64,000 nucleotides of DNA, taken from Pontibacter qinzhouensis. Its GTDB lineage: Bacteria; Bacteroidota; Bacteroidia; Cytophagales; Hymenobacteraceae. The stretch's first letter is position 1. Every line of letters starts with the position of its first letter. The notes under the pieces are model-generated. The model searched no databases, had not been told where the DNA came from, and saw only the letters and a list, made by a program, of their open reading frames with translations. Of the stretch, positions 1,414 to 58,592 are shown piece after piece. The DNA is taken from contig NZ_VRTY01000001.1 of assembly GCF_008017455.1 (NCBI RefSeq), positions 62,001 through 126,000 of the forward strand. Reading direction: 5' to 3'. The translations under genes were made by a program, and so were the position numbers.

Positions 1414-1472
1414 TAAATTATTCTAATAAAAATGTCCTTCCGAAGATAAAAAGTCCTTTTAGCCCTCAGGGT
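1414..1472 (-). repeat. Interspersed repeat copy 1
   Basis: Member of the 19-copy intergenic family. Conserved blocks CTTCGGAAGGAC and ATTAGAATAATTT are intact; the first block is degenerate (ACCCTGAGG). It lies in sense orientation between the kynU stop and the antiporter start. Confidence 0.8.
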
Positions 1473-1493
1473 TGCACAGGGCTGGTATCTGCC

Positions 1494-2771
1494 TTACAGC
1501 TTTCCGGTTAGGCAAACGCGCAACACTTCGGCAAAACGGTATACTTCTTCAAAGCTATTGTACAGGGGCGTGGGTGCCACCCTGATAACGTTGGGCTCGC
1601 GGTAATCGACAATAATGCCCGCTTCCATCAGCAGGTCGAAAAGCTGGCGGGCGTTCTGCTTCACCAGCAACGAAAGCTGGCAGCCACGTGCCTGCGGGTC
1701 GCGGGGCGTAATTACCTCCAGCTGGCTTTTGTCTGCTCCTATCTCATCTATCAGAAACTCCAGGAAACCGGTTAGTTGCTCGCTCTTCGCCCGCAACTGC
1801 TCCATACCGGCTTCATCGAATAACTCCAGCGCGGCACGATGCACAGCCATGGGCAGAATCTGGGCGTTGCTTAGTTGCCAGCCAGCCGCACCAGGCATGG
1901 GTATAAAGCCCTTCTTCATCTGGAACCGCTCTTTTACCTCGTGGCCCCACCAACCGGCAAAGCGCGGCAGGGCAGCGTTGTGGGCGTGGCGCTCGTGCAC
2001 AAATACGCCGGAGGTGCCGCCGGGGCCGGAGTTCATGTATTTGTAGGTGCACCACACGGCAAAATCTACGTTCCAGTCGTGGAGGTGCAGCAGCACGTTA
2101 CCGGCAGCGTGTGCCAGGTCGAAGCCTACAAAGGCACCTGCCGCCTGGCCTGCTTTGGTAATAGCCTCCATATCGAACACCTGGCCGGTATAGTAGTTAA
2201 TGCCGCCCATCATTACCAGCGCCAGTTCCTCTTTGTGAGCTTCTATACTTGCCAGAATATCTTCGGTTCGCAGCGTGTGCTCACCCTCCCGCGGAAACAG
2301 CTCCACCACTGCCTCATCGGGGTTATAGCCATGGAACCTTGCCTGCGACTCCAGCGCATACTGGTCCGATGGGAAAGCACCACCTTCGGTTATAATTTTG
2401 AAGCGCTTGCCCTGCGGCCGGTAAAACGATACCAGCATGAGGTGCAGGTTTACGGTGAGCTGGTTCATAACTACCACCTCCAGCGGCCTGGCTCCTACTA
2501 CACGGGCTGTTGCCTCTGTCAGCAGCTCGTGGTAGTGCAGCCAGGGTGTGTCGGTTTTAAAATGGCCTTCAACGGCAAAATCGGCCCAGTTCTGCATTTC
2601 GTGGTCGAGGTAAGCCTGCGCCGATTTTGGCTGAAGCCCCAGGGAATTGCCGCAAAAGTAAATCGCGTCCTGCTTGTTTAGTTGAGGCGCGTAGAAACGA
2701 TCCTTTAAATGCCGGAGCGGGTCTTTCTGGTCCTGTTCCTGCGCAAAGGCAAGGGTATTGCTGTAGTTCAT
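1494..2771 (-). CDS. kynU: Kynureninase
   Basis: Cytoplasmic PLP enzyme that cleaves 3-hydroxykynurenine or kynurenine to (3-hydroxy)anthranilate plus alanine. The 425-residue length is normal. Seen: fold-type I features in order, FPSDQYA (133-139), the cofactor Asp/His region FDLAHA (217-222), and the Schiff-base Lys244 in CTYKYMNSGPG. ATG start at 2771. It is the last gene of a minus-strand run HAAO - ACMSD - KynU, though 295 bp containing repeat copy 2 separate it from ACMSD, so it may have its own promoter. With ACMSD and HAAO present this is tryptophan/3-hydroxyanthranilate degradation or the NAD quinolinate branch point. No tryptophan dioxygenase or kynurenine monooxygenase is in the window. 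Confidence 0.95.
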   Translation of the reverse strand: MNYSNTLAFAQEQDQKDPLRHLKDRFYAPQLNKQDAIYFCGNSLGLQPKSAQAYLDHEMQNWADFAVEGHFKTDTPWLHYHELLTEATARVVGARPLEVVVMNQLTVNLHLMLVSFYRPQGKRFKIITEGGAFPSDQYALESQARFHGYNPDEAVVELFPREGEHTLRTEDILASIEAHKEELALVMMGGINYYTGQVFDMEAITKAGQAAGAFVGFDLAHAAGNVLLHLHDWNVDFAVWCTYKYMNSGPGGTSGVFVHERHAHNAALPRFAGWWGHEVKERFQMKKGFIPMPGAAGWQLSNAQILPMAVHRAALELFDEAGMEQLRAKSEQLTGFLEFLIDEIGADKSQLEVITPRDPQARGCQLSLLVKQNARQLFDLLMEAGIIVDYREPNVIRVAPTPLYNSFEEVYRFAEVLRVCLTGKL

Positions 2772-2995
2772 GCGGTTGTAGCTGTGGTAGTAGGTTTGTT
2801 TTGCAAGTAGTGTTTAGTACTCTTTTCGGCTAATATAGTTAATTGTGGTGGTTTAGCAGAGGCTGATCGTGTGTCTCAAACTAATGATTGGCCCTTACCC
2901 GGTAGTTTACAGGATGAACAGCATACGGTAAATCTTTAAATTAAAGAGTCAACCATTTAGCCATTAAACAATTTAACAATCAACAACTAACAATT

Positions 2996-3053
2996 AAATT
3001 TTTCTAATGAAAATGGCCTTCCGAAGGTATTTTGCTAAAAGGAGGTCAAGGGT
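2996..3053 (-). repeat. Interspersed repeat copy 2
   Basis: Near-consensus member: ACCCTTGAC block, spacer, CTTCGGAAGGCC, then ATTTTCATTAGAAAAATTT. It starts 14 bp after the ACMSD stop, in sense orientation. Its AT-rich end runs into a spacer built from words such as TTAGCCATTAAAC and CAACAACTAACAATTAA that recur beside other copies. Confidence 0.85.
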
Positions 3054-3066
3054 ATAAGGACGAAAA

Positions 3067-4143
3067 CTATCTTCTTGCTGAGCTGGTGCTGGCTTTCACG
3101 AACTGCTCTTTCTGCAGGTTAAGCCACTCCAGTGCCGTGCCGTGCAGCAGGCGTTCTTTCTCAGCAGCATCGTATGCCATCGACTCGATGAGTTTGCCAG
3201 GTGCTGCCTCTCCAAGCGGAAAAGGGTAATCGGAGCCGAGGGCGATACTGTTGGAGCCGAGGGTTTGCACCAGGTAGTCGAGGGCCAGCGGGTCGTGCAC
3301 CAGCGAGTCTACGTAAAAGCGGCCCAGGTACGATCGTGGGTTCACGTTGTTGTCTACGGCACAAAGGTCGGGGCGCACCTCGAAGCCATGCGCAATACGG
3401 CCAATGGTAGCCGGAAAAGAACCTCCACCGTGCGCAAAAGCCACCCGCAGCTTTGGCAGCCGCTCCAGCACACCGCTAAATATGAGGGAGCAAATGGCCA
3501 TGGTGGTTTCGGCGGGCATGCCTACCAGCCAGGGCAGCCAGTACTTGGTCATGCGTTTTTTGCCGAGCATATCCCAGGGGTGCACAAAAATGGCGGCCCC
3601 CAGTTCTTCTGCCGCCTGAAAAACAGGAAAAAGCTCAGGTGCATCTAAGTTAAACTCGTTCACATGCGTGCCGATCTGGATACCGGCCATGCCCAATTCC
3701 TTCATGCTGCGCTCCAGCTCCTTTATGGCCAGGTCGGCATCCTGCATGGGCAAGGTGCTCAGGCCCACAAAACGGTCGGGGTAATCGGCTACCACACCGG
3801 CAATGTGGTCGTTCAGCATCCGCGACAGGTCGTAGGTGTGTTCCGGTTTGGCCCAGTAGTTAAACATGACCGGCACCGTAGACAGCACCTGCACCCCCAC
3901 CTTTGTACCGTTGCAATCGTGCAGGCGCACAGTTGGATCCCAGCTGTTGTCCTGAATTTCGCGGAAGAACTTGCCATCCATCATCATGCGGGCGCAGCAG
4001 GGCTTGTGGTGCTCCAGCCGCACAAAACCGCCATAGCCATAGCGCTCCCGCAAATTCGGCCACGTTTTGGGCAGGATATGCGTGTGTATGTCGATCTTCA
4101 ACAGATCGGCAGGAGGCAGTATAGAAGGCGTTTGTTTTGGCAT
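3067..4143 (-). CDS. nbaD: 2-amino-3-carboxymuconate-6-semialdehyde decarboxylase (ACMSD)
   Basis: Zinc amidohydrolase-fold decarboxylase that converts ACMS to 2-aminomuconate-6-semialdehyde, diverting carbon away from quinolinate/NAD. Length 358 is slightly above usual because of an N-terminal extension of about 11 residues. Seen: metal ligands H20 and H22 (DIHTH), H188 (HPWD) and D305 (GSDYP), and His238 (AHGGG). The spacing matches characterised ACMSD enzymes (H9, H11, H177, D294, H228) shifted by 10-11. ATG start; stop codon TAG, which is relevant because TAG is therefore a functional stop in this genome. Downstream of HAAO and upstream of kynU, with a REP-like pair and repeat copy 3 in the HAAO-ACMSD gap. 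Confidence 0.94.
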   Translation of the reverse strand: MPKQTPSILPPADLLKIDIHTHILPKTWPNLRERYGYGGFVRLEHHKPCCARMMMDGKFFREIQDNSWDPTVRLHDCNGTKVGVQVLSTVPVMFNYWAKPEHTYDLSRMLNDHIAGVVADYPDRFVGLSTLPMQDADLAIKELERSMKELGMAGIQIGTHVNEFNLDAPELFPVFQAAEELGAAIFVHPWDMLGKKRMTKYWLPWLVGMPAETTMAICSLIFSGVLERLPKLRVAFAHGGGSFPATIGRIAHGFEVRPDLCAVDNNVNPRSYLGRFYVDSLVHDPLALDYLVQTLGSNSIALGSDYPFPLGEAAPGKLIESMAYDAAEKERLLHGTALEWLNLQKEQFVKASTSSARR

Positions 4144-4209
4144 GTTGGAGTAAAAGGAAGTGGCGGAGCTAGTATATACGAGCGGTACCTACTGAAGCAA
4201 CAATTAATT

Positions 4210-4330
4210 ATGGCGCGAGCGTCCTCGCTCGTGTCTACTATTCTGAGGCTTCCGCCCGAACTATGGCTTTACTTTCATGCGGCCAGAGGCCCCGAAATAA
4301 GCATCACGAGCGAAGACGCTCGCGCTAGAA
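4210..4330. repeat. REP-like inverted pair (BIME/MITE-like, about 120 bp)
   Basis: Two inverted copies of a GC-rich hairpin lie 72 bp apart: GCGCGAGCGTCCTCGCTCGTG at 4213-4233 and its near-complement CACGAGCGAAGACGCTCGCG at 4305-4324. Each forms a 6-bp CGAGCG/CGCTCG stem with a four-base loop. A diverged single relative lies at 30297-30350. The arrangement is like REP doublets mobilised by RAYT transposases; no transposase is in the window. Confidence 0.75.
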
Positions 4331-4353
4331 ATACTTTTGACTAACGTAAAACC

Positions 4354-4412
4354 AAATTATTCTAATCAAAAAGCCCTTCCAAAGCTTAAACAGATCAAAA
4401 GGGGTCAAGGGT
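4354..4412 (-). repeat. Interspersed repeat copy 3, abutting the HAAO stop codon
   Basis: The ACCCTTGAC block begins on the base immediately after the TAA stop of the 3-hydroxyanthranilate dioxygenase gene (sense orientation). CTTTGGAAGG and ATTAGAATAATTT blocks follow. Confidence 0.82.
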
Positions 4413-4940
4413 TTAGGCAGGTTTGGAAGGTGGTGCCATAACCTCGCCGCAGTTTTTGCAGGTGCGGCGTTCTTCGTTTTCCCAGAAATTGTTCATAATT
4501 ACAGGCAGCTGCCCCACTATGTCGGTTACGTCGGCATATTCTTCGTAAAGTTTGGTGCCGCAGTTCTCGCAGAACCACAGAAAACCATCTTGCTCGCCTG
4601 CCTTGCGGTAGCGCTCTATTACCAGGCCAATGGTGTTGGCGGGGCGGCGCGGCGAGTGTGGCACTTTGGGCGGCAGCAAAAATATCTCGCCCTCCTTTAT
4701 CGGGATATCCACAGGTTTGCCGTCTTCAATAATCTTGAGTACAATGTCGCCTTCCAGCTGGTAAAAAAACTCCTCGCCTTCGTCGTAGTGGTAGTCTTTG
4801 CGGGCGTTGGGGCCGCCTACCACCATCACAATAAAATCGTCGTTGGCTTTAAAAACCTGCTGGTTTCCTACAGGTGGTTTCAGCAGGTGCCGGTGGTCTT
4901 CTATCCATTGCTTAAAGTTGAAAGGTTTTGCTACAGCCAT
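4413..4940 (-). CDS. nbaC: 3-hydroxyanthranilate 3,4-dioxygenase
   Basis: Cytoplasmic Fe(II) cupin dioxygenase that opens 3-hydroxyanthranilate to ACMS, the ACMSD substrate. I place the start at ATG 4940 (175 aa), preceded by a purine-rich AAGAAGAGAAA, rather than the in-frame TTG at 4970. Seen with this numbering: iron ligands H51, E57, H95; substrate residues R47, R99, E110; and a C-terminal rubredoxin-like site C124, C127, C161, C164, typical of bacterial (not animal) enzymes. First gene of the minus-strand kynurenine run; divergent from the metallophosphoesterase gene at 5200. Confidence 0.95.
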   Translation of the reverse strand: MAVAKPFNFKQWIEDHRHLLKPPVGNQQVFKANDDFIVMVVGGPNARKDYHYDEGEEFFYQLEGDIVLKIIEDGKPVDIPIKEGEIFLLPPKVPHSPRRPANTIGLVIERYRKAGEQDGFLWFCENCGTKLYEEYADVTDIVGQLPVIMNNFWENEERRTCKNCGEVMAPPSKPA

Positions 4941-5199
4941 TTTCTCTTCTTGTTTTTGATGATAACCCAAGTTACGAAAAAGCGGCAGAAACAGGCAAAA
5001 GGCTCCTCCAGGTAACCAAGATTATCTGAACAAATAACACTTGCCAGGGCAGCACCTGTGGCTCCTGAAAATCTTTTAAACTCAGGACCCGATTAAAAGT
5101 ATATAAGCAGAACAGCCAGGCAGCCAGTTTTCCGGATCACACGCTATCTTAGTAAAAAAGTACCGTGTGTGCAGGCCCTGCTACTTGTACCCAACAATC

Positions 5200-8100
5200 A
5201 TGAAACACGCTTTACAGGCCACCCTACTTTTTATTTGCGCACTCAATATCTTCTCCTGCCGAAGCAGCAAAATATACTATGGCCCCGAAGCCGGCAACTG
5301 GCAGGAACAGCAGCTACCCGATACCGCTGAGCTGGCTTACACGGTGTATTTGCTGGGCGATGCCGGCGCTCCCAAACCAGAGGAACCCACATTTAAACTA
5401 CTCAAGTCGCAGCTGGACCGTGACCCGAACAGCACGCTGGTAGTGCTTGGTGATAACCTCTACCACAACGGTCTTTCAGAAGAAGGTGCGGCTGGCAGAG
5501 ACGTGCAGGAGCAACGCCTCGACGACCAGATAAACCTGGCAGCTGATTACCAGGGCCAGGTGTTTTTTGTACCCGGCAACCACGACTGGGATTATATGGG
5601 CCCCAAAGGTCTGGAGAAAATTAACAGGCAGGAGCAGTACGTGGAGCAGAAGCTGAACCGTGGCAACACCTTTGTACCCGACAATGGCTGCCCCGGCCCC
5701 TTTACCGCTACCCTGCACAACGATGTGGTGTTTATTGGCTTCGACTCGCAGTGGTGGCTGCACCGGCACGAAAAACCTTACGGCCCCAACAGCGGCTGCC
5801 AGGCCACCAACGAAACAGAAATGCTGCAGAAAATAGAGCAGATACTGGAGCAGAGCAAAGGCAAGCACGTGGTGGTATCGGCGCACCATCCGTTTTTCAG
5901 TAACAGCAACCACGGCGGCTACTATTCTATTCTGGACCACCTGTTCCCGCTCCGGCTCATCCGCGATGGCCTGTACATACCCCTGCCGGTTATTGGTTCG
6001 CTTTATCCTTTCTTCCGGAAGTTTGGAGGTGTAGACCAGGATATTCCGCACTTCCGGTACCAACAGCTCATTAACGAGCTTACCCGCATCTTTACCCGCT
6101 ACGACAATATTATTTACACGGCCGGCCACGACCACAACCTGCAACTGCACCGCACCGATCGGTTTGTGCACATCATCAGCGGGTCGGGCTGCAAATCGAA
6201 CCATACCGAAAGAGGCAACAACGCTACCTTTGTGCACAACGAGAAAGGCTTTGTAAAGCTGCTTTACTACAGCAACGGCGATGCCTGGACCGAGTTCTGG
6301 ACTCCTGAAGGTGACGGTACAACCGGCCAGGTTAATTATCGTGAAAAGCTCTACAACAGGAAGTTTGCAGACGCAACTACTGTTTGCCCCGACACCCTAT
6401 TGGCCGACAGCCACACCACCCTTACCCCCAGCCCCAACGGGCTGGACAAGCACCCGCTGGCCGGGCTACTGCTCCGTCGCCATTACAAACAGGAATGGAA
6501 CACGCCAGTGCAGGTACCCCTGCTGAACCTGGGCAGTCCGGAGCACAAACTGGCACCTTATGGCGTCAGCACAAACCAGGATAAGTACCTGCTCCGGCTG
6601 CAGAACACCAATGGGTTTGAGTTCAGCTTCAGGCCCCTGCTCCGAAACTCGCTCCTGACGGTGCCCATGCGCTACCGGCACGCGGGCTCCATAGAACAGC
6701 TCCGCGATACCTGGCTCCCCTCGCAGCACCCTTACGCGCCGCTTGTAGTCAGCCACCTCGAAAAAGCAGCCTGCATTCTCACCACCTCTCCAACGCTCTA
6801 TTTTTTGTCGGAAGAGGCATGCCTGGGGCTATACCAGGAGCAGTTCAAAAATAAACTCGGCTACCTGGAACCAGATGCAGAAGATTACCATGCGGAGTTG
6901 CTTTCTGATAAACCTTCTCCTCCGGTGCTTAGTTACAACAGCTTATTGCTGGAACTGGAGCGCAACCACCAACACGTTATAGATGCCAGAGCCTTCGCTA
7001 AAGTCCGCCTCCTCGACATGCTTGTTGGCGACTGGGACAGGCACGAGGCGCAGTACGACTGGGCACAGACAAGGCAAAACGAGCATATTGTGTACCTGCC
7101 TATTCCGGAAGACCGCGATAATGCCTTTTTTTACTTTAACGGGCTTGTGCCTTGGCTGGCAAGCCGGGCATGGGGGGTACGGGAGCTGCAGCATTTCAGC
7201 TACAACATCACGCGCCTCAAAGACCTGAACAACGAAGCCCGTAACCTGGACCGGCGCTTGCTCGGGAGCCTGACTCCTGCCGATTGGGTAGCCATTGCCG
7301 ATTCTTTGCAGCAAGCGCTCACCGACCAGGTACTGGATTCGGCGGTGCGCCAGATGCCACCGGAAGTATACCATTTTCATGGAAATGAGATAGCCGCCAA
7401 GTTAAAGTCGCGGCGCATGCAGCTGCAGGAGGTAGCGCAAAAATACGCGCACCTGCTCTCCCGGTATGTAGATGTGTACGGCAGCGAACAGCAGGAGCGG
7501 TTTGAGGTAGTACGGCAGCAGAATGGTACGACCCAAGTACGTGTTTACGCCATCGGCAACACTCCCGACTCACTGCTTTACAGCCGCACCTTCTCTCCTT
7601 CCGAAACAAAAGAAGTGCGCCTGTATGGCCTGGGCGGTCAGGACCAGTACCACATCAGCGGTAGCAAACCAGCTAAAAAAGACATTCTTGTTCGCATTAT
7701 CGGGCACAGAGGACATGGCCGCTACCAGAACACCTACTCCGGCGATACACTGGCTGCTCCACATGTAGAACTTTATAATGTTCATAACCCTAACAACGAT
7801 GCTCTTTTAGTAGACAACACAACCGAAACAGAGGCCGACTTTACATCTGGCGAACTCATTAACAGCCCTGCTTCCGACAGGTTTTTCTACACGCATTTCG
7901 GCCCCGGCATGAGTTTGCTGTACAACCAGGCCGATGGTGTAGTGGTGGGGGCTGGTGTGCAGTATCGTTCCTACAAATTCAGGAGCAACCCTTACGGCTC
8001 GCGGCATACGTTTCTTTATCAGCGGGCGCTCTCCACGGGCATGGCCCGCCTGTTTTACGAAAGTGAGCTGAAGAACTTTGCTTATGACCTGGACCTTATT

Positions 8101-10486: not shown

Positions 10487-10651
10487 CCCAGTGCTACTGC
10501 ACCAACCTTTTCGGTAACGCAGGTAAACAGCTGTAACACCGCTACAGGAGGTGGTAAAGCTACCTTTACTGTTAACAGCAGCGAGAACAGTACCTTCCTG
10601 GTATATATTGAGCGTAACGGCACCGCAGGCTACCAAGCCAACACAGCTGAT

Positions 10652-15977: not shown

Positions 15978-16036
15978 ACCCTTGACAAAATTTTGTTAAA
16001 AACCCGTTGGGAGGGCAAAATCATTAGAATAATCTG
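15978..16036 (+). repeat. Interspersed repeat copy 4
   Basis: ACCCTTGAC, AT-rich spacer, a diverged core CGTTGGGAGGGC, then ATTAGAATAATCT. Sense relative to the upstream DUF11 gene. It forms an inverted pair with copy 5, 80 bp away; between them lie words such as AACCATTTAA. The rest of 15887-16352 holds no gene. Confidence 0.75.
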
Positions 16037-16115: not shown

Positions 16116-16173
16116 GAATTATTCTAATGAAATTGGTCTTCCAAAGGATTAAATGGCATTTCTTGCCAAGGGT
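16116..16173 (-). repeat. Interspersed repeat copy 5
   Basis: Opposite strand to copy 4: ACCCTTGGC, spacer, CTTTGGAAGACC, ATTTCATTAGAATAATTC. Located upstream of the SDR gene. Confidence 0.78.
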
Positions 16174-19272: not shown

Positions 19273-19274
19273 CC

Positions 19275-21916: not shown

Positions 21917-21974
21917 AAATTATTCTAATAAATTTGGCCTTCCGAAGGCTTTTTGCTGCTTTTTGGCCAAGGGC
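21917..21974 (-). repeat. Interspersed repeat copy 6
   Basis: GCCCTTGGC block, spacer, CTTCGGAAGGCC, ATTAGAATAATTT. Located between the divergent sigma and HPP genes. Confidence 0.84.
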
Positions 21975-22772: not shown

Positions 22773-23216
22773 TGGGTTTATATGAGTTAAGAGTTATGAG
22801 TTTAGAGGTGTGAATATTTCATTCCATAATTCTAAATTCTTACTTCTTAAATTAATTAATTAGCACATTGCTGGCATCCTTCTACCTCTAGCTTTGCTCC
22901 AAAAACATATTGCGGCAGGTAGCAACAGAGCAGACAAAGTAGCCAGGTGCATAGAATGAAAATAAACTGTTTGAGCGTTCAGCGAGTTTTTATTTTCTTG
23001 ATTTTTTTTGTTCTTTTTGTATCAAGACAAAAAGAACAAAGACTTGGGCTATGAAATAACTTACCTCTGAGAGTATGTTATCAAGTGGCTATGCGAACTT
23101 AAACTTTAAAGCAAATAGCCATCGCCTCTGGCTCTTGCCCACAAGATCCTTTCAGGAGGACAAAAAGTGAGTTACTTTAAGTGGAGATGAAGCATTACAC
23201 CGGCTACTGTACAACC
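22773..23216. other. Intergenic region with long perfect palindrome
   Basis: No gene seen. It contains AT words (GAGTTAAGAGTTATGAG at 22787-22803) and a perfect 13-bp inverted repeat, TTGTTCTTTTTGT and ACAAAAAGAACAA, with a 6-base loop at 23008-23039. The palindrome could act as a bidirectional terminator or be a dispersed hairpin; a similar T/C-rich hairpin is common in this phylum (recollection, not checked). Confidence 0.5.
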
Positions 23217-23274
23217 AATTATTTAAATTAAAACACCCTTCCGAAGGGTTTTTGCCCTGGAAGCACTCAAGGGT
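23217..23274 (-). repeat. Interspersed repeat copy 7
   Basis: ACCCTTGAG, spacer, CTTCGGAAGGGT, ATTTAAATAATT. Sense, downstream of the DPP-IV gene and beyond its terminator. Confidence 0.8.
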
Positions 23275-30503: not shown

Positions 30504-30562
30504 ACCCTTGGCTAGGAATGCGTAAAAAACCTTCCGGAGGCAAGATTCATTCGAATAATTTG
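30504..30562 (+). repeat. Interspersed repeat copy 8
   Basis: ACCCTTGGC, spacer, CTTCCGGAGGC, ATTCATTCGAATAATTT. Lies between the proS terminator and the nfeD gene. With the REP hairpin and terminator it fills 30267-30669, which has no other gene. Confidence 0.8.
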
Positions 30563-32222: not shown

Positions 32223-32282
32223 ACCCTTGACCTGGTTAGAGCCAAAATTGCTTTGGAAGGCTGTTTTCATTGGAATAATTTG
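32223..32282 (+). repeat. Interspersed repeat copy 9
   Basis: ACCCTTGAC, spacer, CTTTGGAAGGCT, TTTTCATTGGAATAATTT; followed by the TTG-rich word run GATTGTTGGTGATTGCTGA that also follows copy 14. First of a direct pair with copy 10, 213 bp apart. Confidence 0.84.
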
Positions 32283-32435
32283 ATTGTTGGTGATTGCTGA
32301 TTGTTTATTGCTGGATGTTAGTGGCTAAATGGTTTATCTGGTAATCTGAAGAGGGTGAAGGAAAAGTATATACTGCAAAAAACACCTTAGAAGCTACCTC
32401 GAAGTACATTCCTCTAAAACATCTCTGCCAGGTTA

Positions 32436-32493
32436 ACCCTTGACAAAATTTTGGCGAAAAGCCTTCTGGAGGCCATTTTTATTTGAATAATTT
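32436..32493 (+). repeat. Interspersed repeat copy 10
   Basis: ACCCTTGAC, spacer, CTTCTGGAGGCC, ATTTTTATTTGAATAATTT. Copies 9 and 10 plus two terminators account for most of the gene-free 32137-32713. Confidence 0.82.
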
Positions 32494-35929: not shown

Positions 35930-35987
35930 AAATTATTTAAATCGAAATAGCCTTCAAAAGAAAAAACTGTTAATCCAAGCCAAGGGT
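35930..35987 (-). repeat. Interspersed repeat copy 11
   Basis: ACCCTTGGC, spacer, CTTTTGAAGGCT, ATTTAAATAATTT. Sense relative to the T9SS NHL gene ending at 36072. Confidence 0.75.
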
Positions 35988-40042: not shown

Positions 40043-40100
40043 ACCCTTGACGGTAACTAAGCTAAAAAACTTTTGGAGGCCTTTTTCATTTAAATAATTC
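40043..40100 (+). repeat. Interspersed repeat copy 12
   Basis: ACCCTTGAC, spacer, CTTTTGGAGGCC, TTTTTCATTTAAATAATTC. One of the copies antisense to both flanking genes. Confidence 0.8.
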
Positions 40101-44647: not shown

Positions 44648-44706
44648 ACCCTTGAAGCAGATTGACCAAAATGCCTTCGGAAGGCCATTTTCATTAGAAA
44701 AATTTA
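44648..44706 (+). repeat. Interspersed repeat copy 13, overlapping the prmC stop codon
   Basis: Nearly perfect blocks ACCCTTGAA, CTTCGGAAGGCC, ATTTTCATTAGAAAAATTT. The AT-rich end overlaps the TAA (44704-44706) of prmC on the opposite strand. Confidence 0.85.
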
Positions 44707-47473: not shown

Positions 47474-47531
47474 ACCCTTGACTAAAATCCTCTACAACTC
47501 TCTCGGAAGGCCATTTTCATTGGAATAATTG
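47474..47531 (+). repeat. Interspersed repeat copy 14
   Basis: ACCCTTGAC, spacer, CTCGGAAGGCC, ATTTTCATTGGAATAATT; sense, just after msrC. First of a direct pair with copy 15 (214 bp), enclosing a different REP-like hairpin. The pair and hairpin fill 47464-47786. Confidence 0.85.
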
Positions 47532-47602
47532 CTGGTTGTTGGTTGTTAATTGCTGATTGTTTTATGGCTAACTGGTTAAATTGCTGCATTAAAGGTAAAG
47601 CA

Positions 47603-47687: not shown

Positions 47688-47747
47688 GCCCCTGAGGTCT
47701 AAAATCTATAAAAAGCTTCTGAAGGCTAATTTCATTTGAATAATTTA
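47688..47747 (+). repeat. Interspersed repeat copy 15
   Basis: Degenerate GCCCCTGAG block, spacer, CTTCTGAAGGCT, ATTTCATTTGAATAATTT; 40 bp before the small lipoprotein gene. Confidence 0.7.
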
Positions 47748-48215: not shown

Positions 48216-48412
48216 GGGTTGTGGCTGGGAATGGTTTTCTAATATCAACATTTTTGATTTTGAATAACCAATCTGGTGAAGCTCCTAAGCTGCTATAATT
48301 ATTTATCTAAATCGTTCTTAGAAAGTAATGCTTGGTTGTGGAAAGGTCAATTGTAAGCAGCAGGGGAGGCTAACAGCCGATGAATTACCCAATTATTTTA
48401 TTTTATGCGTTT

Positions 48413-49759: not shown

Positions 49760-49997
49760 ATGTGCTTATAGATTTGATTTAGCGTATCATGTAGATTTCT
49801 GCAACGGCTCATGCAATTTCACTTTCCAGCTCAACTGTACTATCTCTCCAAGCCTTTCCCTCACAGAATAAACGCAGTAATAATCTAACTGGTCAGGAGC
49901 CCCTCTACTATTGCATAATCTCAAGGCAATATACAACTTTAAGCATATTGCTACTATAACACCAGCTACATTTTTCACGCAACTGCAGAGCCAAAAG
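49760..49997. other. Gene-free spacer
   Basis: AT-moderate spacer between the small barrel gene and the psd terminator; no ORF, repeat copy or promoter I can support. Confidence 0.4.
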
Positions 49998-50037
49998 CAG
50001 CAGGGGCTGCCCCGAAGATCCGGAGCAGCCCCTGCTG
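49998..50037 (-). terminator. Terminator of psd
   Basis: Perfect 13-bp stem CAGCAGGGGCTGC / GCAGCCCCTGCTG with a 14-base loop; weak T tract. Confidence 0.75.
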
Positions 50038-50059
50038 TATAATCTAGAGTTGCGGTCTT

Positions 50060-50743: not shown

Positions 50744-50897
50744 CCGTAGTTTTATTAGCAGCAGTCACTTTAATATTCTGCAATGGTTTCATCTATAAAT
50801 AGAGCAAACCAATATCGGGGATAAAATTAGATAAACTTTAGCTTATTTGGCAATAAATTATTAGAAACTGCACATAATCCCCCTGCACGCGTTTTTG

Positions 50898-51725: not shown

Positions 51726-51791
51726 GTAGTGTGTTTGATCCGGAGGTGCAACTATGGCAAAAATAGGGTTTAAATAGAGAATGCCAAAAAC

Positions 51792-52793
51792 TTAAACATC
51801 GTCCATTCTGTCGGGTGAGCTGCTGGTATCGGTTAGGTTGGCGGCAGGCTCAGGTTCTGCTTCCCGCTTCTGCAAAAGTGGCAGCTTCATGAACTCGTTG
51901 TAGAGGTAGTAGAGCAAAGCAGCACTCAGCACAACCGACATGGCCACGCTGTAAATCGGCATTGGTTCCGACGATTCTATATCGGCCTCTATCCTGCCGG
52001 TTTGGTAGAGGTACAGGAGCAGCACCGTAAAACCATTGTTTACAAAGTGCGCCACAATGGGCACGCTAATTCTGCCCGACCACCAGTACAGGTAGCCAAA
52101 CAAGGCGCCTAGCACCATGCGGGGCACAAACCCGAAGAACTGCACATGAATGGCACTAAAGGCGATAGCTGCCACCCAAATGCCTACATGCCCATTGCCG
52201 GACCAGCGCTGGATCTGCCGCTGCACCACCCCTCTGAATAGTAACTCCTCGCCTATGGCCGGAATAACAGCAATTACCAGCAGCCCCACCAGCAGCTCCG
52301 GAACAGTGGTGAACTTGGCAAACAACTTGGTGAGTTCGGCAGCATACTCTTCTTTCTGCCGGGCCCATTCCTCAAATGTTTTCATGAACTCAGGCAACGA
52401 CATGTTGGCATTCCAGTAAATAATGAGCGAGTTGGCAGGCATGATCACGATAATCAGCAGGCCGCTCAGCAACACCAGGCCAAGCATAGGGCGGCCTTTC
52501 CAGTTCAGGTAGCGGCCCAGGTCGTAGCCCAACGACTGTATGAGCAGCAACGGAGCCAGCACAAACATGCATATCGACACAATGCCCTGGTAAAACATTA
52601 TAGCATTGCGCCCCTGCGGGAACTCCGTCGGGTTTTTCAGGGCCCTCTCTAGCTCAAACATACCTACTCCAAACAGCATGTCGCCAAATACGGCATATAA
52701 AAAAGTGGCTACAAAAGCCCCTCCTATCACAAAGGCAATCAGCAACAGCAGCACCAGAAATGGACTTGTTTCTTTCGGGATGAAACCTTTCAT
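51792..52793 (-). CDS. CPBP-family intramembrane glutamic endopeptidase (ABI/Rce1-like)
   Basis: 334 residues from ATG 52793 (the longer frame to 52898 would overlap the divergent dus gene and adds no membrane start). Seen: eight or so membrane segments; motif 1 EELLFRG (Glu182, Glu183, Arg187), motif 2 FSAIHVQF (His216), then VPRMVLGALFGYLYWWSG and HFVNN, the Rce1/CPBP catalytic pattern. Substrate unknown. Possibly cotranscribed with cdsA. Confidence 0.9.
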   Translation of the reverse strand: MKGFIPKETSPFLVLLLLIAFVIGGAFVATFLYAVFGDMLFGVGMFELERALKNPTEFPQGRNAIMFYQGIVSICMFVLAPLLLIQSLGYDLGRYLNWKGRPMLGLVLLSGLLIIVIMPANSLIIYWNANMSLPEFMKTFEEWARQKEEYAAELTKLFAKFTTVPELLVGLLVIAVIPAIGEELLFRGVVQRQIQRWSGNGHVGIWVAAIAFSAIHVQFFGFVPRMVLGALFGYLYWWSGRISVPIVAHFVNNGFTVLLLYLYQTGRIEADIESSEPMPIYSVAMSVVLSAALLYYLYNEFMKLPLLQKREAEPEPAANLTDTSSSPDRMDDV

Positions 52794-52846
52794 AGAGAAG
52801 TTTAGGTTTAATTGATGTAAATTTACGTGAAAAAATAAATTAAGCT

Positions 52847-53830
52847 TTGGTAAAGATAGCGAACATAGAACTTGGCGAGTTTCCGCTGCTGCTGGCACCT
52901 ATGGAAGACGTAAGCGATCCGCCGTTCCGGAAGGTGTGCAAAGCAAATGGCGCTGATTTGATGTATACGGAATTTATCTCGTCGGAGGGTTTGATCCGGG
53001 ATGCAGCCAAAAGTCTGCAGAAGCTCGACATTTTCGATTATGAGCGCCCGATCGGCATCCAGATTTTCGGCTCTGAGATAGATTCGATGCGCGAAGCCGC
53101 CATTGTATCGACACAGGCAGGCCCCGACCTGATTGATATAAATTACGGTTGCCCTGTAAAAAATGTGGCCTGCAAAGGTGCCGGAGCCGCCCTGCTCCGC
53201 GACATCCCGAAAATGGTGCAGATGACTTCCGAAATCGTGAAGGCCACGCACCTGCCGGTAACGGTAAAAACACGCCTCGGCTGGGACGATAACACCAAAA
53301 ACATTGTAGAAACAGCCGAGCGCCTGCAGGATATCGGCATTAAAGCCCTGAGCATACACGGCCGCACCCGTGTGCAGATGTACAAAGGCGAAGCCGACTG
53401 GAGTCTGATAGCCGAAGTTAAGAACAACCCCCGCATGAAGATCCCGATCTTTGGCAACGGCGACATCGACACACCTGAAAAAGCACTAGAGTACCGCAAC
53501 CGCTACGGTGTGGATGGCATCATGATCGGCCGGGCCTCTATTGGCTACCCCTGGATTTTTAACGAGATAAAGCACTACATGGCAACCGGGGAACAACTGC
53601 CGGGGCCAACCCTGGAGGAGCGCGTAGCTGTTTGCCGCCAGCACTTTACGCACTCGCTGGAGTGGAAAGGCGAAAAACTTGGCATTTTTGAAATGCGCCG
53701 CCACTACACCAACTACTTCAGGGGGTTGTCGCACTTTAAGCCGCTGCGCATGCGCCTGGTGCAGTCCGAAGACATAAACGAAATTTACGATACGCTGGAG
53801 GAGATTGCCCAGACCATGAGTTTCGTTTAA
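52847..53830 (+). CDS. dusB: tRNA-dihydrouridine synthase
   Basis: 327-residue FMN enzyme reducing uridines in tRNA. Seen: LAPMEDVSDPPFRKVCK (16-32), DINYGCPVKNVACKGAGAALL with the proton-donor Cys after NVA, TVKTRLGWDD, SIHGRTRVQMYKGEADW, and NGDID ... DGIMIGRASIGYPW. Start TTG 52847, 54 bp from the divergent CPBP start. DusB subgroup chosen by motif style; DusA/C less likely. Confidence 0.92.
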   Translation: MVKIANIELGEFPLLLAPMEDVSDPPFRKVCKANGADLMYTEFISSEGLIRDAAKSLQKLDIFDYERPIGIQIFGSEIDSMREAAIVSTQAGPDLIDINYGCPVKNVACKGAGAALLRDIPKMVQMTSEIVKATHLPVTVKTRLGWDDNTKNIVETAERLQDIGIKALSIHGRTRVQMYKGEADWSLIAEVKNNPRMKIPIFGNGDIDTPEKALEYRNRYGVDGIMIGRASIGYPWIFNEIKHYMATGEQLPGPTLEERVAVCRQHFTHSLEWKGEKLGIFEMRRHYTNYFRGLSHFKPLRMRLVQSEDINEIYDTLEEIAQTMSFV

Positions 53831-53843
53831 TAAACCTTTTTAT

Positions 53844-53901
53844 AAATTATTTGAATAAAAATGTCCTCCAAAAGGTTTTTTAGCCTTTTAGACTCCAGGG
53901 C
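53844..53901 (-). repeat. Interspersed repeat copy 16
   Basis: Degenerate GCCCTGGAG, spacer, CTTTTGGAGGAC, ATTTTTATTCAAATAATTT; antisense, 13 bp after the dus stop. Inverted pair with copy 17 across 54 bp. Confidence 0.72.
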
Positions 53902-53955
53902 GCTGGCAGCACCTGATCTGTTACCGGTGCCCTGCATTTGCATGAAAAGGTTTCG

Positions 53956-54014
53956 ACCCTTGGCATAGAAATGGTTGTAAAGGTCTCCGAAGGGCATTTT
54001 CATTCGAATAATTT
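53956..54014 (+). repeat. Interspersed repeat copy 17
   Basis: ACCCTTGGC, spacer, CTCCGAAGGGC, ATTTTCATTCGAATAATTT; followed by TTGATTGTTGATTTG and, inverted 50 bp later, CAACCAACAATCAGCAACC. Confidence 0.8.
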
Positions 54015-54097
54015 GATTGTTGATTTGAAGGCGCAACGCAGCTTTTACATTTCTTAATAACAACCAACAATCAGCAACCATCAATTAACTAAACACC

Positions 54098-55003
54098 ATC
54101 AAAACAACTATTCCTCCCGCACAAGTCAAAACTGCCGTTCCGGTACTTACCTGGCTGCTGATTATCGTGCTCACCTTTATCTGGGGCACTTCTTTTATTC
54201 TGATAAAAAAAGGACTTGTCGTTTTTGCCTCCGATGAGCTGGGAGCCTTACGCATTGTCATTGCCTGCCTTTCGCTGCTGCCCTTTGCCATTGCCAACCT
54301 GCGCAAAATAGCGCCCGACCGCTGGAAGTTCCTGCTGCTGAGCGGGCTGCTGGGCAATCTGTTCCCGGCGTTTCTGTTTGCTTATGCCGAAACTGAGCTG
54401 GCAAGCGGACTGGCAGGTGTGCTCAATTCGCTCACGGCCCTGTTTACTCTTTTGATTGGTGCAGCCCTTTTCCGGCAGCGCATTACCTGGCTGCGTATGG
54501 CAGGCATTTTAGTGGGCATAGCAGGCACCGCCATGCTCATTTTTACCGGAAACGGAAATGCCGAAACGAGCAATGCCTTTTATGGGCTTTTTATTGTAAT
54601 CGCCACCATCTGCTATGGCGGCAGCGCCAACATCATCAAGTTCAGGTTGCAGGGCATACACCCGGTCGTGATGTCGAGTATGGCTTTGCTGACAGTGGGA
54701 CCTTTGGCAGCTGTTTACCTGGGCACAACAGATGCCTTTCACAAACTGCAGGTTACCGAAGGAGCCTGGGAAGCCTTGCTATATATTGCCCTGCTGGCAG
54801 TTTTCAGCACCGCCATCGGCCTGATTCTGCTCAACAAGCTCATCCATATCTCCACGCCCGTTTTCGCCAGCACCATCAACTACCTCATCCCGATTGTGGC
54901 GCTCATGTGGGGCGTGCTCGATGGCGAAACCATTCAGACCTGGCACTACCTGGGCATGGTGGTTATTCTGGCAGGCGTTTTTATTGTGAACAGGGCCAGG
55001 TAA
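54098..55003 (+). CDS. EamA/DMT-superfamily transporter with no canonical start
   Basis: About 302 residues if started at 54098, ten membrane segments in two EamA repeats (first FIWGTSFILIKKGL, second ATICYGGSANIIKF), consistent with a drug/metabolite exporter of unknown substrate. The frame is open from a TAA at 54086-54088, but no ATG, GTG or TTG occurs before GTG 54167, which would cut the first membrane segment. ATC at 54098 (reading IKTTIPPAQVKTAVPVLTW) looks like a former ATG. So the true start is ATC, ATT (54110), or the truncating GTG 54167, or the gene is damaged. Confidence 0.82.
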   Translation: MKTTIPPAQVKTAVPVLTWLLIIVLTFIWGTSFILIKKGLVVFASDELGALRIVIACLSLLPFAIANLRKIAPDRWKFLLLSGLLGNLFPAFLFAYAETELASGLAGVLNSLTALFTLLIGAALFRQRITWLRMAGILVGIAGTAMLIFTGNGNAETSNAFYGLFIVIATICYGGSANIIKFRLQGIHPVVMSSMALLTVGPLAAVYLGTTDAFHKLQVTEGAWEALLYIALLAVFSTAIGLILLNKLIHISTPVFASTINYLIPIVALMWGVLDGETIQTWHYLGMVVILAGVFIVNRAR

Positions 55004-55241
55004 AAATGCGTGCTTAGCAGCACCACAACTCACGGCATTGCTTATTTCTATTTCTGGTGGTACTTCAGCCTCCTACACCTCCTGCAACGGCACCTTTTTG
55101 GCTATGCTCATGCCAGGTTACAAAAAATGCCGGGCAGTTTTTATGGAGTTTATCGAAAACGACCTATCTGGCAGCAGTATATTTTCGTTTACGCATATTA
55201 TTTACTTATTTGTGGAGTTAAAAACTTATCTATCCTGTTAA
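55004..55241. other. Spacer upstream of the NhaC gene
   Basis: Contains short unsupported frames only; TACTTATTTG near 55204 is a poor -7 candidate. Confidence 0.35.
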
Positions 55242-57233
55242 ATGACGTTATTCCGGACAGTTCTTAGCTTCTTGTTAATTCTTTTAACTGCTTCTCAGGT
55301 CTTTTCACAGGAAGAAAACAAAAAGACTGCCATTGCTGAGCTTAAACTGCAGGCCGTAAACGATACGGCCTTTATGTTGCGCACCACCACCGAAACCGGA
55401 AACCTTGTAAAATATAACGGTCCGCTGCCACTACGCATAAACGGGTCATTGCAGGAAACCAGCTTCACCGAGGGCGAGGCAGTACTCTCACTGGCAGCCC
55501 CTGCCAACCTTATCCAGGTTACTGCCAACCTGGACACGCGCACCATTGCCCGCCTCTACCAACCTAATGCCGATTCTGAGCACGGGGTAAGAGAATTCCC
55601 GATGTGGGTCTCTATTCTGCCGCCGCTCCTGGCCATTGTGCTGGCGCTTATTTTCCGGGAAGTACTGCTGGCGCTGTTTGCCGGTATTTGGGTAGGAAGC
55701 TTTGTTATTTATGGCCTTTCTTTTAAATCGATGTTTACCGGCCTGCTCGCTGTGGCCGACACTTATTTAGTAGGCGCACTCACCGATACCGATCACGTGT
55801 CTGTTATTCTGTTTTCGATGCTGATAGGCGGCATGGTGGCCATTATCTCGAAGAATGGCGGCATGGCGGGTGTGGTAAACCTGCTTTCTGGCTATGCCAG
55901 GTCTGCCAAAAGCTCGCAGGTGGTGACCTGGGGCCTGGGACTAGCCATCTTTTTTGATGATTATGCCAACACCCTGATCGTGGGCAACACCATGCGACCA
56001 GTAACAGACAAACACCTGGTTTCCCGCGAAAAACTGGCTTATATCGTAGACAGCACGGCTGCGCCAGTGGCAGCCATCGCATTTGTAACAACCTGGGTCG
56101 GAGCCGAACTGGGTTATATAAAAGATGCTGCCAGTAGCTTGGGTATTCAGGAGGGAGCGTATTCTTTGTTCTTCAATTCGTTGCAATATGCCTATTACCC
56201 TGTGCTCACGCTGGTGTTTATGCTGATGCTGATCCTCATGAACCGCGACTTTGGATTGATGCACAAAGCAGAGACCCGGGCGCGTACTACAGGTGCGGTA
56301 AGTGCTATTCGCATAAACGAAAAATCGGAGGAAAAACAGCAGCAGGAGATGGCTGAGTTTGCTCCTGTGGACCCAAGCCGTAGCAGAGCTGTTAATGCAC
56401 TGTTGCCTGTGCTCATCGTTATATTCGGAACCATAGTGGGCTTACTGTACACAGGCTTTAACCCTGCCGTTTGGGAAGATACTTCTCTTAGCTTTTTCCG
56501 GAAGCTTTCAGTTACCATCGGAGACTCCAACTCTTATGTTGCTCTTATATGGGCCTCTTTATCGGGGGTGCTGGCAGCCATAATATTAACCATCAGCCAG
56601 CGCATTATGAGCCTGTATGAAACCATGGAATCGTTGGTAACTGGTTTTAAATCGATGCTACCGGCTATTCTTATTCTGGTGCTGGCCTGGTCGCTGGCAT
56701 CGGTTACAAAAGAGCTTTATACAGCCGAGTACCTCACCTCCCTTTTCTCAGGCAATGTGTCGCCACGGTTTCTGCCAGAGATCACCTTTTTTCTGGCAGC
56801 CATAATTGCTTTTTCTACTGGCTCCAGCTGGGGCACAATGGCTATTCTGTACCCGCTTATGCTGCCAGCCGCCTGGTATGTGTGCCAGCAGTTGGGCATG
56901 TCGCAGGAAGAAACAATGCCTATTATTTATAACATAATTTCGGTGGTGTTAGCTGGCTCCGTGTTCGGCGACCACTGCTCCCCTATTTCCGATACCACTA
57001 TTCTCAGCTCCCTTGCCTCCGGTTGCAACCACATCGACCACGTAAAAACCCAGATGCCTTATGCCATAACTGTGGCTTTGGTGGCTAATCTTATCTGCAC
57101 CAATCTCTCGAGCTGGGGCGTAAACTGGTTCCTGGTATACCTGATCGGGGCGGGTGTGCTCTGGCTCATTATCCGATTTCTGGGAACAAAGGTGGAGGCT
57201 GCGCCACCCACCCGGCAAGGGAAGCTGTTTTGA
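55242..57233 (+). CDS. NhaC-family Na+/H+ antiporter with N-terminal exported domain
   Basis: 663 residues, ATG 55242. Seen: a cleavable signal peptide (to FSQ, about residue 22), an extracytoplasmic beta-rich domain of about 95 residues, then from about 120 a 12-13-helix transporter with FDDYANTLIVGNTMRPVTD, STAAPVAAIAFVTTW, AFSTGSSWGTMAILYPL and GSVFGDHCSPISDTTILSS, all conserved in NhaC transporters. Standard NhaC lacks the exported domain. Family role: sodium or organic-substrate/proton exchange. Confidence 0.88.
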   Translation: MTLFRTVLSFLLILLTASQVFSQEENKKTAIAELKLQAVNDTAFMLRTTTETGNLVKYNGPLPLRINGSLQETSFTEGEAVLSLAAPANLIQVTANLDTRTIARLYQPNADSEHGVREFPMWVSILPPLLAIVLALIFREVLLALFAGIWVGSFVIYGLSFKSMFTGLLAVADTYLVGALTDTDHVSVILFSMLIGGMVAIISKNGGMAGVVNLLSGYARSAKSSQVVTWGLGLAIFFDDYANTLIVGNTMRPVTDKHLVSREKLAYIVDSTAAPVAAIAFVTTWVGAELGYIKDAASSLGIQEGAYSLFFNSLQYAYYPVLTLVFMLMLILMNRDFGLMHKAETRARTTGAVSAIRINEKSEEKQQQEMAEFAPVDPSRSRAVNALLPVLIVIFGTIVGLLYTGFNPAVWEDTSLSFFRKLSVTIGDSNSYVALIWASLSGVLAAIILTISQRIMSLYETMESLVTGFKSMLPAILILVLAWSLASVTKELYTAEYLTSLFSGNVSPRFLPEITFFLAAIIAFSTGSSWGTMAILYPLMLPAAWYVCQQLGMSQEETMPIIYNIISVVLAGSVFGDHCSPISDTTILSSLASGCNHIDHVKTQMPYAITVALVANLICTNLSSWGVNWFLVYLIGAGVLWLIIRFLGTKVEAAPPTRQGKLF

Positions 57234-57262
57234 CAGTGATGTGGAAGTGCTTCTGCAGAAAA

Positions 57263-58213
57263 CTACAGCGTTAGTTCATAAAAGTCCTGCACCACTGCCC
57301 GGGCACCATAGCTTTCTTTGTTCGCAATAAGGCCTTCGTTCAGGTACTGCCCCTGCTGCTCTGTAGAGATGCCGAAGCTGAAGTATTTTTTGTGTGGATA
57401 CACTTGCGTAAGCAGTTCGTGTATAAGAGCATCTAAGGCATAAGCGGCACGGCCTGCTGCAGTGGTGGCAATGTACTGGCAATGCGCTACTTGCGCTGTT
57501 TCGTATACTACTACCCCTGCTACCATAGCTCCTTGGTGCATCGCAACAAACAACTTTATGTTATCAGGGAAAAGAGAGACTAGTTTCTGAAGCTCGGCTG
57601 CTGAGTGCACAGGGGTTGTTTGATACTTGCTTTCCAGTAGTTCCTGCTCCATTTGCATGAACGTCTCGAGATCAGCGGAGGGAGCAACTAAAACACCTGT
57701 TTTTTCGGCTTTTGTTATTTGCCACCTCCTGGTTCTGGAGTAGCCTGGTTGCTCCTGCAACTCAATAACCGAACTTACATCGCGCCGGTAAAGCGCGGCC
57801 TGGTGCCGGAACAGCGCATACAGATCTTCCTCAGCTGGCAACTGATGGTAAATGTGCGGAATTGCTTTGTAGATTAACCTTCTGGACCCTTTCTCTCTGA
57901 AGTAGGAAAGCAATGCCTCGAACACCTCCAGCATCAGCGGCACTTTCATGCTGCTGCCGCTAATAATACTACCATACGTTAAACCGCCATGGGAGTAGAT
58001 GGTATCGCCAGCCACATTGGCAGGCAGCAGCGCCACCAACTTACCTTTATGGAAGAACAGCAGCGAGTGGTCCTCAAACCTGTCTGCATGGTACTCCATG
58101 TAGTTTCGCTGTAACAGAAACGTGCCGTTTTTAGAGGAAGATACAAAAGCATCCCAGGCAGCTTTATGCTCCGGGCTATATCGTTCTATATGTACTGTTG
58201 CTGCTGAACCCAC
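57263..58213 (-). CDS. GNAT/FemAB-like acyltransferase
   Basis: 316 residues. Seen: two tandem GNAT-like halves; conserved-looking GTFLLQRNYMEYHADRFEDHSLLFF, YSHGGLTYGSI and IYKAIPHIYH in the first, and LFVAMHQGAMVAGVVVYETAQVAHCQYIATTAAGR and YFSFGISTEQQGQYLNEGL in the second, as in FemAB-related proteins found beside polysaccharide genes. Donor and acceptor unknown. The only start is GTG 58213, which lies at the end of a 27-bp tandem repeat, so the 5' end is uncertain. Confidence 0.78.
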   Translation of the reverse strand: MGSAATVHIERYSPEHKAAWDAFVSSSKNGTFLLQRNYMEYHADRFEDHSLLFFHKGKLVALLPANVAGDTIYSHGGLTYGSIISGSSMKVPLMLEVFEALLSYFREKGSRRLIYKAIPHIYHQLPAEEDLYALFRHQAALYRRDVSSVIELQEQPGYSRTRRWQITKAEKTGVLVAPSADLETFMQMEQELLESKYQTTPVHSAAELQKLVSLFPDNIKLFVAMHQGAMVAGVVVYETAQVAHCQYIATTAAGRAAYALDALIHELLTQVYPHKKYFSFGISTEQQGQYLNEGLIANKESYGARAVVQDFYELTL

Positions 58214-58265
58214 CTTCTTTAGATGTTAGACTTTAGATACCTTCTTTAGATGTTAGACTTTAGAT
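58212..58265. repeat. Tandem 27-bp repeat, two perfect units
   Basis: Units begin ACCTTCTTTAGATG and end GACTTTAGAT; the second is followed by a partial TAGATGCTAGA. The repeat forms the 5' edge of the acyltransferase gene. Confidence 0.85.
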
Positions 58266-58367
58266 GCTAGATTTTTGTTTGAATCCCTAAATCTTGAAAT
58301 TTGAAAGCCTTCAAACAATTTATCACATCAATCATTTAGCCATTAAACCATTTAAAAATCAGCTTCC

Positions 58368-58425
58368 AAATTATTCTAATGAAAATAGCCTTCCGAAGAC
58401 TTTTAGGCTTTTTTTCGCTTAGGGT
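58368..58425 (-). repeat. Interspersed repeat copy 18
   Basis: ACCCTAAGC, spacer, CTTCGGAAGGCT, ATTTTCATTAGAATAATTT. 4 bp from a type 2 REP-like hairpin. Second of a direct pair in the minus direction with copy 19. Confidence 0.82.
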
Positions 58426-58429
58426 CTGG

Positions 58430-58475
58430 TTCTATCAGACACTCGCAGGAGCTGCGCACACTGCGAGGTCTTACC
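58430..58475 (-). repeat. REP-like hairpin type 2, copy B
   Basis: Reverse complement of 47603-47648 with one clear mismatch; same position between two interspersed repeats. Confidence 0.8.
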
Positions 58476-58534
58476 GGCAATAGCTTTAAATCTACAAATA
58501 CATTAACACATTAAACCATTAGCATATACGCAAC

Positions 58535-58592
58535 CAATTATTCGAATGAAAATGGACTCCAGAAGATTATTAAGCTAAATCTGGTCAAGGGT
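58535..58592 (-). repeat. Interspersed repeat copy 19
   Basis: ACCCTTGAC, spacer, CTTCTGGAGTCC, ATTTTCATTCGAATAATTG. Sense, 62 bp after the histidine kinase stop. The tandem repeat, copies 18-19 and hairpin fill 58214-58654. Confidence 0.82.

Follow-up and report, generated by a model that had tools for sequence, protein, structure and literature searches.

An abundant 58-bp intergenic element in Pontibacter qinzhouensis and its possible role as a protein docking site at transcription-unit borders

A family of 58-bp elements

The stretch considered here, 64,000 nucleotides of Pontibacter qinzhouensis contig NZ_VRTY01000001.1 (assembly GCF_008017455.1, positions 62,001 to 126,000 of the forward strand; C1:62001-126000) and called the window below, carries a repeated 58-bp element between its genes. 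A first-pass annotation, made from the letters alone, had listed 19 intergenic copies on both strands. Our profile scan of the window confirmed them as 19 complete copies within 1415-58592 and added a twentieth, which begins at 63971 and continues past the window end (Table 1). The two-block architecture that had been proposed for the copies is real as well: the strict two-block pattern has two exact matches in the window and none in 100 shuffles, and CTTCGGAAGGCC occurs there 18 times at up to two mismatches, where 4.58 +- 2.24 occurrences are expected.

The assembly comprises 6.22 Mb in 220 contigs, of which a sample of 864 kb, including the window, was read. In this sample 258 sites score above 10 bits, against one such site in one dinucleotide-resampled sequence, and 257 of the 258 beat the maximum of that sequence by more than 1 bit. 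Low-scoring, decayed copies are rare (9 of 258 sites below 28 bits). Extrapolated from the sample, the genome would hold about 1,840 copies. Genome-wide, a 31-mer of core and tail at up to three mismatches is found at 492 places and its reversed control at none. The 58-bp element is a real, abundant family. The first-pass annotation knew of no described family with this consensus, and our searches gave none either: Rfam has no match at gathering score in the window and nothing at the elements at E <=10 within 29500-59000, and the parts of the literature that we searched contain no account of such Pontibacter repeats.

Conservation spans positions -27 to +30 relative to the core start, with sharp edges on both sides. 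The unit consists, in this order, of a 5' arm with ACCCTTGRC, a variable A-rich stretch, a core (consensus CTTCGGAAGG, also written CTTCGGAAG) and a tail (consensus ATTTTCATTnGAATAATTT). The near-constant spacing noted at first proves tighter than described. ACCCTTGRC starts at -27 in 174 of 256 copies and at -28 in another 49, so that 223 copies fall into two registers that differ by 1 bp; the remaining 33 have block 1 elsewhere or no clear block. The 5' arm holds 14.6 bits of information, core and tail together 42.4 bits. AT-rich tracts, read off the consensus, lie near -14, -4.5, +14.5 and +26, positions that would roughly match helical phasing. The ends of the element are ACCCTTGRC and GAATAATTT, and the stem in the core measures just 3-4 bp. 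Inspection of the consensus revealed neither GTAG/CGTC-tagged palindrome ends nor terminal inverted repeats, block 1 not being complementary to the tail end.

Signs of reading at the DNA level

In the AT tracts of P. qinzhouensis the TpA step is scarce, both at -14/-13 (8 observed, 43 expected) and at -5/-4 (5 observed, 30 expected), and AA and TT substitute for each other as blocks. The TTT at 13-15 is swapped for AAA in this species and in the second carrier species, P. beigongshangensis, in the copies of which AA at 14/15 occurs 10 times against 1. An RNA U-run would not be expected to stand such swaps. Covariation in the presumed hairpin is absent: among 63 aligned copies 65.9% of the cells are paired, compared with 66.3% after shuffling, and in both species (251 and 134 copies) pairing equals the column expectation. 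TpA avoidance, AAA/TTT exchange and the lack of covariation suggest that it is double-stranded DNA that gets read.

Placement relative to genes

Six of the 256 copies in the sample fall inside predicted genes. The others are distributed among tandem gaps (98 copies sense, 67 antisense), convergent gaps (52), divergent gaps (28) and contig edges (5). Of 245 copies that lie outside genes and have two neighbours, 150 are downstream of a gene in sense orientation, an excess which arises in part because all convergent-gap copies score as sense. For the window, the earlier count of 13 such copies in 19 is correct, and it becomes 14 in 20 with the copy running off the end. The more gene 3' ends border a gap, the more often it is occupied: at lengths of 120-400 bp, the occupied share is 23 of 36 for convergent, 62 of 157 for tandem and 3 of 27 for divergent gaps. 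This avoidance of divergent gaps is in keeping with the earlier view that the element may be no promoter.

The longest element-free stretch measures 40.6 kb (G000 C2:9874-50470, loci L035-L037; 41.5% GC). From its 13 gaps of 120 bp or more, 5.2 elements would be expected, and the probability of finding none is 4e-4 for a stretch chosen post hoc. A horizontal island was considered here and rejected, since Pfam matches identify the tuf-rpoBC-fusA-ribosomal-secY-rpoA-eno region (tuf, rpoB, rpoC, fusA, ribosomal proteins including L3 and L2, secY, rpoA, eno). Ten proteins from other element-free stretches belong, by Pfam, to a GH106/GH2 sugar locus, SusC/SusD-type genes, a molybdopterin-oxidoreductase/NrfD pair and a TIG-domain protein; one is without match and none is phage-like.

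Distance between elements does not correlate with GC content (rho 0.014, 201 distances above 400 bp); the ten distances above 9 kb are slightly GC-poorer (0.457 vs 0.478, p 0.03). Distances of 3-4 kb number 48, compared with 21.4 +- 4.6 under random intergenic placement. Measured between occupied gaps, against a null matched by gap length and type, they number 45 vs 30.2 +- 4.3, and distances below 1 kb number 7 vs 14.3 +- 3.1; under this matching part of the 3-4 kb excess is lost. The overall coefficient of variation of the distances is not reduced (0.92, null 0.80), one 40-kb gap contributing to it. The idea of a replication-strand marker was dropped, as orientation, judged by eye, is not tied to contig GC skew.

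Distribution among relatives and conservation of position

The search covered 98 relatives, with 49 from the same genus, 11 from the family and 38 from the order. The search among related Hymenobacteraceae that the first-pass annotation had suggested met with success in one genome only, P. beigongshangensis (G026), which carries the family with 134 matches at up to three mismatches; the other 97 relatives are without matches. The two carriers have 903 and 960 occurrences of the tail ATTNGAATAATT, and each of the remaining 48 genomes of the genus has 0-8. A scan of named genomes returned 17 stretches, all from P. beigongshangensis, the own genome being possibly excluded from that scan. With either species' profile, no site above 16 bits was detected in 1.18 Mb of 24 other Pontibacter genomes, and 136 were detected in 400 kb of P. 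beigongshangensis. Under the sister profile, each of six resampled 480-kb sequences holds none or one site above 16 bits, one of these, in a base shuffle, scoring 24.4 bits; the real sites above 10 bits number 160.

In the sister the tail consensus is unchanged and core and arm differ. Its core is CTCCGGAGGG, also written CTCCGGAGG, and its 5' arm is GCA-rich where that of P. qinzhouensis bears A-tracts. CCCTTG is present in none of 134 sister copies vs 184 of 251 in P. qinzhouensis, CAGCAG in 85 of 134 (40 bases upstream) vs 11 of 251 (60 bases upstream). The exact element pattern has no match in viral contigs, nor does a single 63-base copy in plasmids or phages, the latter being a weak test; a phage or plasmid origin was dropped on these grounds.

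Between the two species, 159 reciprocal best hits gave 120 conserved neighbour pairs, and for 60 of these the gap measures 100 bp or more in each species. Elements are present in both species in 22 of these gaps, in neither in 28, and in one species in 5 and 5. The concordance of 50 in 60 compares with 40.5 +- 2.8 by length-matched shuffling (p 0.002). Orientation agrees between the species for 9 of the 11 gaps with one element each and for 4 of the 6 with two each, and six gaps contain doublets in both species. In 17 orthologous copies, taken from gaps of equal element number and orientation, core and tail differ by 0.255, random pairs by 0.256; the flanks differ by 0.70-0.72, compared with 0.74-0.75 at random, and are thus near saturation. 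Because orthologous copies differ in core and tail as much as random ones, the variable positions have lost their ancestry and the fixed ones hold. We infer that each site is maintained individually, and that the preferred sequence has additionally shifted lineage-wide.

Other iterated words in Pontibacter

Other Pontibacter genomes contain iterated words of their own. The 10-mer GCTATACCTG occurs 559-1,472 times per genome in 12 of them (e.g. G015, loci L143-L152) and 19-134 times in the other 38. Another word, TTTATACTTT, is present in 377-2,253 copies in 23 more (e.g. G030, G013, G040) and is rare, 32-57 copies, in the 12 genomes rich in GCTATACCTG. Genome G028 (L153-L157) has a mostly intergenic element around GGCTGTGGTGGCAG, with 820 places at up to one mismatch, where the remaining 49 genomes of the genus have 2-23. 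Candidate words from k-mer counts in 20 kb each are GCTATAGTT in G044 and G031, and TTTATATAT in G042 and G037. The 9-mer of GCTATACCTG matches 91 times in genes and 51 times between them in G015 and G029 together, and this word appears uptake-word-like. For the 9-mer of TTTATACTTT, loci of eight genomes gave 23 raw matches in convergent and 2 in divergent gaps. The notion that every species has a word was not borne out: G024 (180 kb read), G025 (120 kb) and G045 (140 kb) are without a dominant one, the top intergenic word among them being GCAAAGGTA, found 9 times in G045.

Possible function and rival explanations

We tentatively suggest that the element may be the docking site of a putative DNA-bending protein at transcription-unit borders. 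The 58-bp sites would then constitute a genome-wide maintained set of double-stranded DNA sites, read by this protein between transcription units. Core and tail would supply specificity, and the 5' arm, with its A-tracts in P. qinzhouensis and its GCA-rich sequence in the sister, would be bent or wrapped. The bound complex might mark the border or insulate it, say as a roadblock to transcription or as a supercoil barrier. The evidence for docking consists of sequence signatures of DNA-shape reading. The earlier proposal had a site under constraint from either a protein or an RNA structure; its protein-DNA side is supported, and the RNA hairpin shows no covariation.

Binding sites of nucleoid or domain-organising proteins, such as IHF, matS and parS sites, resemble the element in their DNA-shape features, directional site and border placement. 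matS and parS have far fewer copies and a shorter motif, and IHF sites are less well defined. The element also differs in not being shared across the genus. A bolder assumption, which we consider doubtful, is that it belongs to a new class, border elements found throughout a chromosome: well over 1,000 long asymmetric sites, one or two per border, served by a lineage-specific DNA-wrapping reader. Reader and sites would have co-evolved so fast that the sister rewrote arm and core in place, and other Pontibacter lineages would fulfil the same task with entirely different words. If each of the approximately 1,840 sites is maintained individually, an undescribed system for reading DNA spans the chromosome. 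The sister pair shares its gaps and differs in its sites, by which the co-evolution of a reader with its sites across the genome becomes directly testable.

Several observations speak against the docking site. The element is present in just 2 of 50 genus genomes, and its function must therefore be dispensable or replaced elsewhere. Transcription ties its orientation weakly, as the tandem gaps show, and the gradient with gene 3' ends may reflect mere removal of copies from promoter regions. Terminator-like hairpins accompany 27% of 205 gene ends with an element and 28% of 137 without; a trade-off with intrinsic termination was dropped on account of this equality. No binding protein was found, and none was sought by experiment. 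TpA avoidance is not clear in the GCA-rich arm of P. beigongshangensis, and because of this the bending of that arm is a guess. Orthology was tested on 60 gaps and 17 copies, and the genes come from our own simple caller (618 genes, 79% coding). Finally, some copies may share descent, because spacers in P. qinzhouensis differ on average at 4.68 of 17 bases compared with 5.36 +- 0.06 in column-shuffled data, tails are slightly more alike than shuffled ones (2.17 vs 2.49 differences in 31), and likeness to another copy extends into part of the 5' flank in 4 of 251 copies and into the 3' flank in 28 of 251.

The main rival, in our opinion rather unlikely, regards the elements as self-DNA words that would be favoured by a competence or recombination machinery, with biased uptake spreading them and holding them in register, much as for the uptake sequences of Haemophilus and Neisseria. 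It is the main rival because other Pontibacter lineages possess words of similar number and gap distribution; these would be, to our knowledge, the first concrete candidates for self-DNA words in Bacteroidota. As far as the consulted parts of PMC1939737, PMC7811141 and PMC3630211 describe them, uptake signal sequences (USS) and DNA uptake sequences (DUS) number on the order of 1,000-2,000 copies on both strands with some over-regular spacing, have AT tracts beside the core, form lineage dialects and change in place. The element shares all of this, including the AT tracts adjoining its core as in USS, and it is an iterated word with lineage dialects as in DUS, being confined to two species with other words elsewhere in the genus. 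The excess of 3-4 kb distances under the matched null points in the same direction, and so do the raw gap counts of the short words, which are alike in being high in convergent and low in divergent gaps with no strand preference. ComEC matches are present in all 50 genus genomes, and for one member of the Bacteroidota, Riemerella columbina, PMC7965970 describes a preference for own DNA, for which k-mer counts gave A/T-rich words alone. USS and DUS words, however, measure 9-12 bp, compared with 58 bp and about 57 bits here, and they are common inside genes too, as are the short Pontibacter words, whereas our element is nearly never found there. A 57-bit motif with few partial matches would not be expected from spread by point mutation. 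Doublets kept in both species, a coefficient of variation not under its null and the three large-genome species without a dominant intergenic word in 120-180 kb also disagree with uptake. Moreover, a type IV pilus ATPase is not recognisable in the seven genomes tested, where PF00437 aligns over 47-66 of 370 positions and passes its cut-off, barely, in one (G015); other pilus genes were not searched, and competence without pili could still operate.

A short mobile repeat, similar to repetitive extragenic palindromes (REPs) and bacterial interspersed mosaic elements (BIMEs) or of another kind, might alternatively have spread in the common ancestor and been kept later, maybe without present function; as an account of the whole we find this distinctly unlikely. 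A 57-bit unit at more than 1,000 places would hardly arise except by copying, and, like REPs, BIMEs and REPINs, the element is abundant, intergenic, 3'-side enriched and sometimes paired; it also lies on both strands and is lineage-restricted. RAYT-like Y1 transposases have five matches in P. qinzhouensis and six in P. beigongshangensis. Such matches are, though, spread over 43 of the 50 genus genomes, and 41 of these lack the element, so that its presence is not linked to these genes, and three of the five loci in P. qinzhouensis contain 6 elements in 17.3 kb, about the background, with no close inverted pair around the RAYT-like gene. REP/RAYT elements are described as palindromes tagged with GTAG or CGTC at one end (PMC3733652; see also PMC8049555, both consulted in part); our consensus has no such tagged palindrome, the doublets have no fixed geometry, and the absence of terminal inverted repeats distinguishes it from miniature inverted-repeat transposable elements. 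The likeness of spacers weighs for the recent amplification that had been offered at first, the more so in the sister (3.91 of 17 vs 6.38 shuffled, minimum 0), where it may be due to GCA repeats and the two registers. The closest spacers of P. qinzhouensis nevertheless differ at 2 of 17 bases, the same as in column-shuffled data. Decayed copies are few, and the gaps have retained their elements, mostly in the same orientation, although the flanks are nearly saturated. Recent amplification is not supported by these facts; a REP-like origin is plausible for the first spread of the unit and does not account for its persistence in place.

A role as RNA terminator is unlikely, and an RNA element in general, be it an intrinsic terminator or a 3'-UTR hairpin, seems to us very improbable. 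CCTTCGGAAGG can indeed fold into a 4-bp stem followed by ATTTTC, and sense copies downstream of genes prevail. An intrinsic terminator should nonetheless display compensatory changes, which the hairpin lacks, and 67 of 165 tandem copies are antisense. In addition, AAA can replace TTT, and the sister core does not keep the same stem, its positions 2 and 6 pairing in 14%. The first judgement that this is not a normal terminator is supported. Among other iterated words, HIP1 of cyanobacteria is likewise highly iterated and of debated function; in the sources consulted in part it is given as an 8-bp palindrome, the element being long, non-palindromic and intergenic.

Individual copies in the window and minor observations

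Table 1. Copies of the 58-bp element in the window, with profile scores in bits
Feature	Position	Strand	Score	Remark
Element copy, 58 bp	1415..1472	-	45.2
Element copy	2996..3053	-	47.8	both blocks near consensus; exact two-block match
Element copy	4354..4411	-	44.2
Element copy	15978..16035	+	29.6	weakest of the 19
Element copy	16116..16173	-	42.7	second of inverted pair
Element copy	21917..21974	-	44.6	divergent gap; exact two-block match
Element copy	23216..23273	-	39.9	convergent gap
Element copy	30504..30561	+	33.2	P. beigongshangensis counterpart at about equal distance from gene
Element copy	32224..32281	+	46.3	first of doublet kept in P. beigongshangensis
Element copy	32436..32493	+	47.3	second of doublet (partner 32224) kept in P. 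beigongshangensis
Element copy	35930..35987	-	39.8	convergent gap
Element copy	40043..40100	+	43.4
Element copy	44648..44705	+	47.8	P. beigongshangensis: same gap, same orientation
Element copy	47474..47531	+	40.7	doublet with 47689; one copy in the sister's gap
Element copy	47689..47746	+	48.3	doublet with 47474; one copy in the sister's gap
Element copy	53844..53901	-	38.8	diverging pair with 53957
Element copy	53957..54014	+	37.8	diverging pair with 53844
Element copy	58368..58425	-	51.3	doublet with 58535; top score in window
Element copy	58535..58592	-	41.1	doublet with 58368
Twentieth copy, start only	63971..64000	+		whole copy 63971-64028 on the joined contig

The copies at 53844 and 53957 fall within a weak call of a 177-nt open reading frame, which is probably not a gene. 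A small antisense open reading frame starting in the tail (ATGAAAATG) was dropped, since the first base of its CAT is C in just 55% of sister copies. Both strands of 49979-50053 resemble Rfam mir-4776 far under the gathering score, probably as a chance palindrome. At 62370-62440 an inverted repeat, ggctccctgaag...CTTCGGGGAGCC, is followed by TTTT, and has the appearance of an ordinary intrinsic terminator with a partial resemblance to the element core. Low-complexity runs similar to TTGTTGGTTGTTGATTG adjoin some copies on their 3' side, for example at 32282-32320 and 47532-47560.

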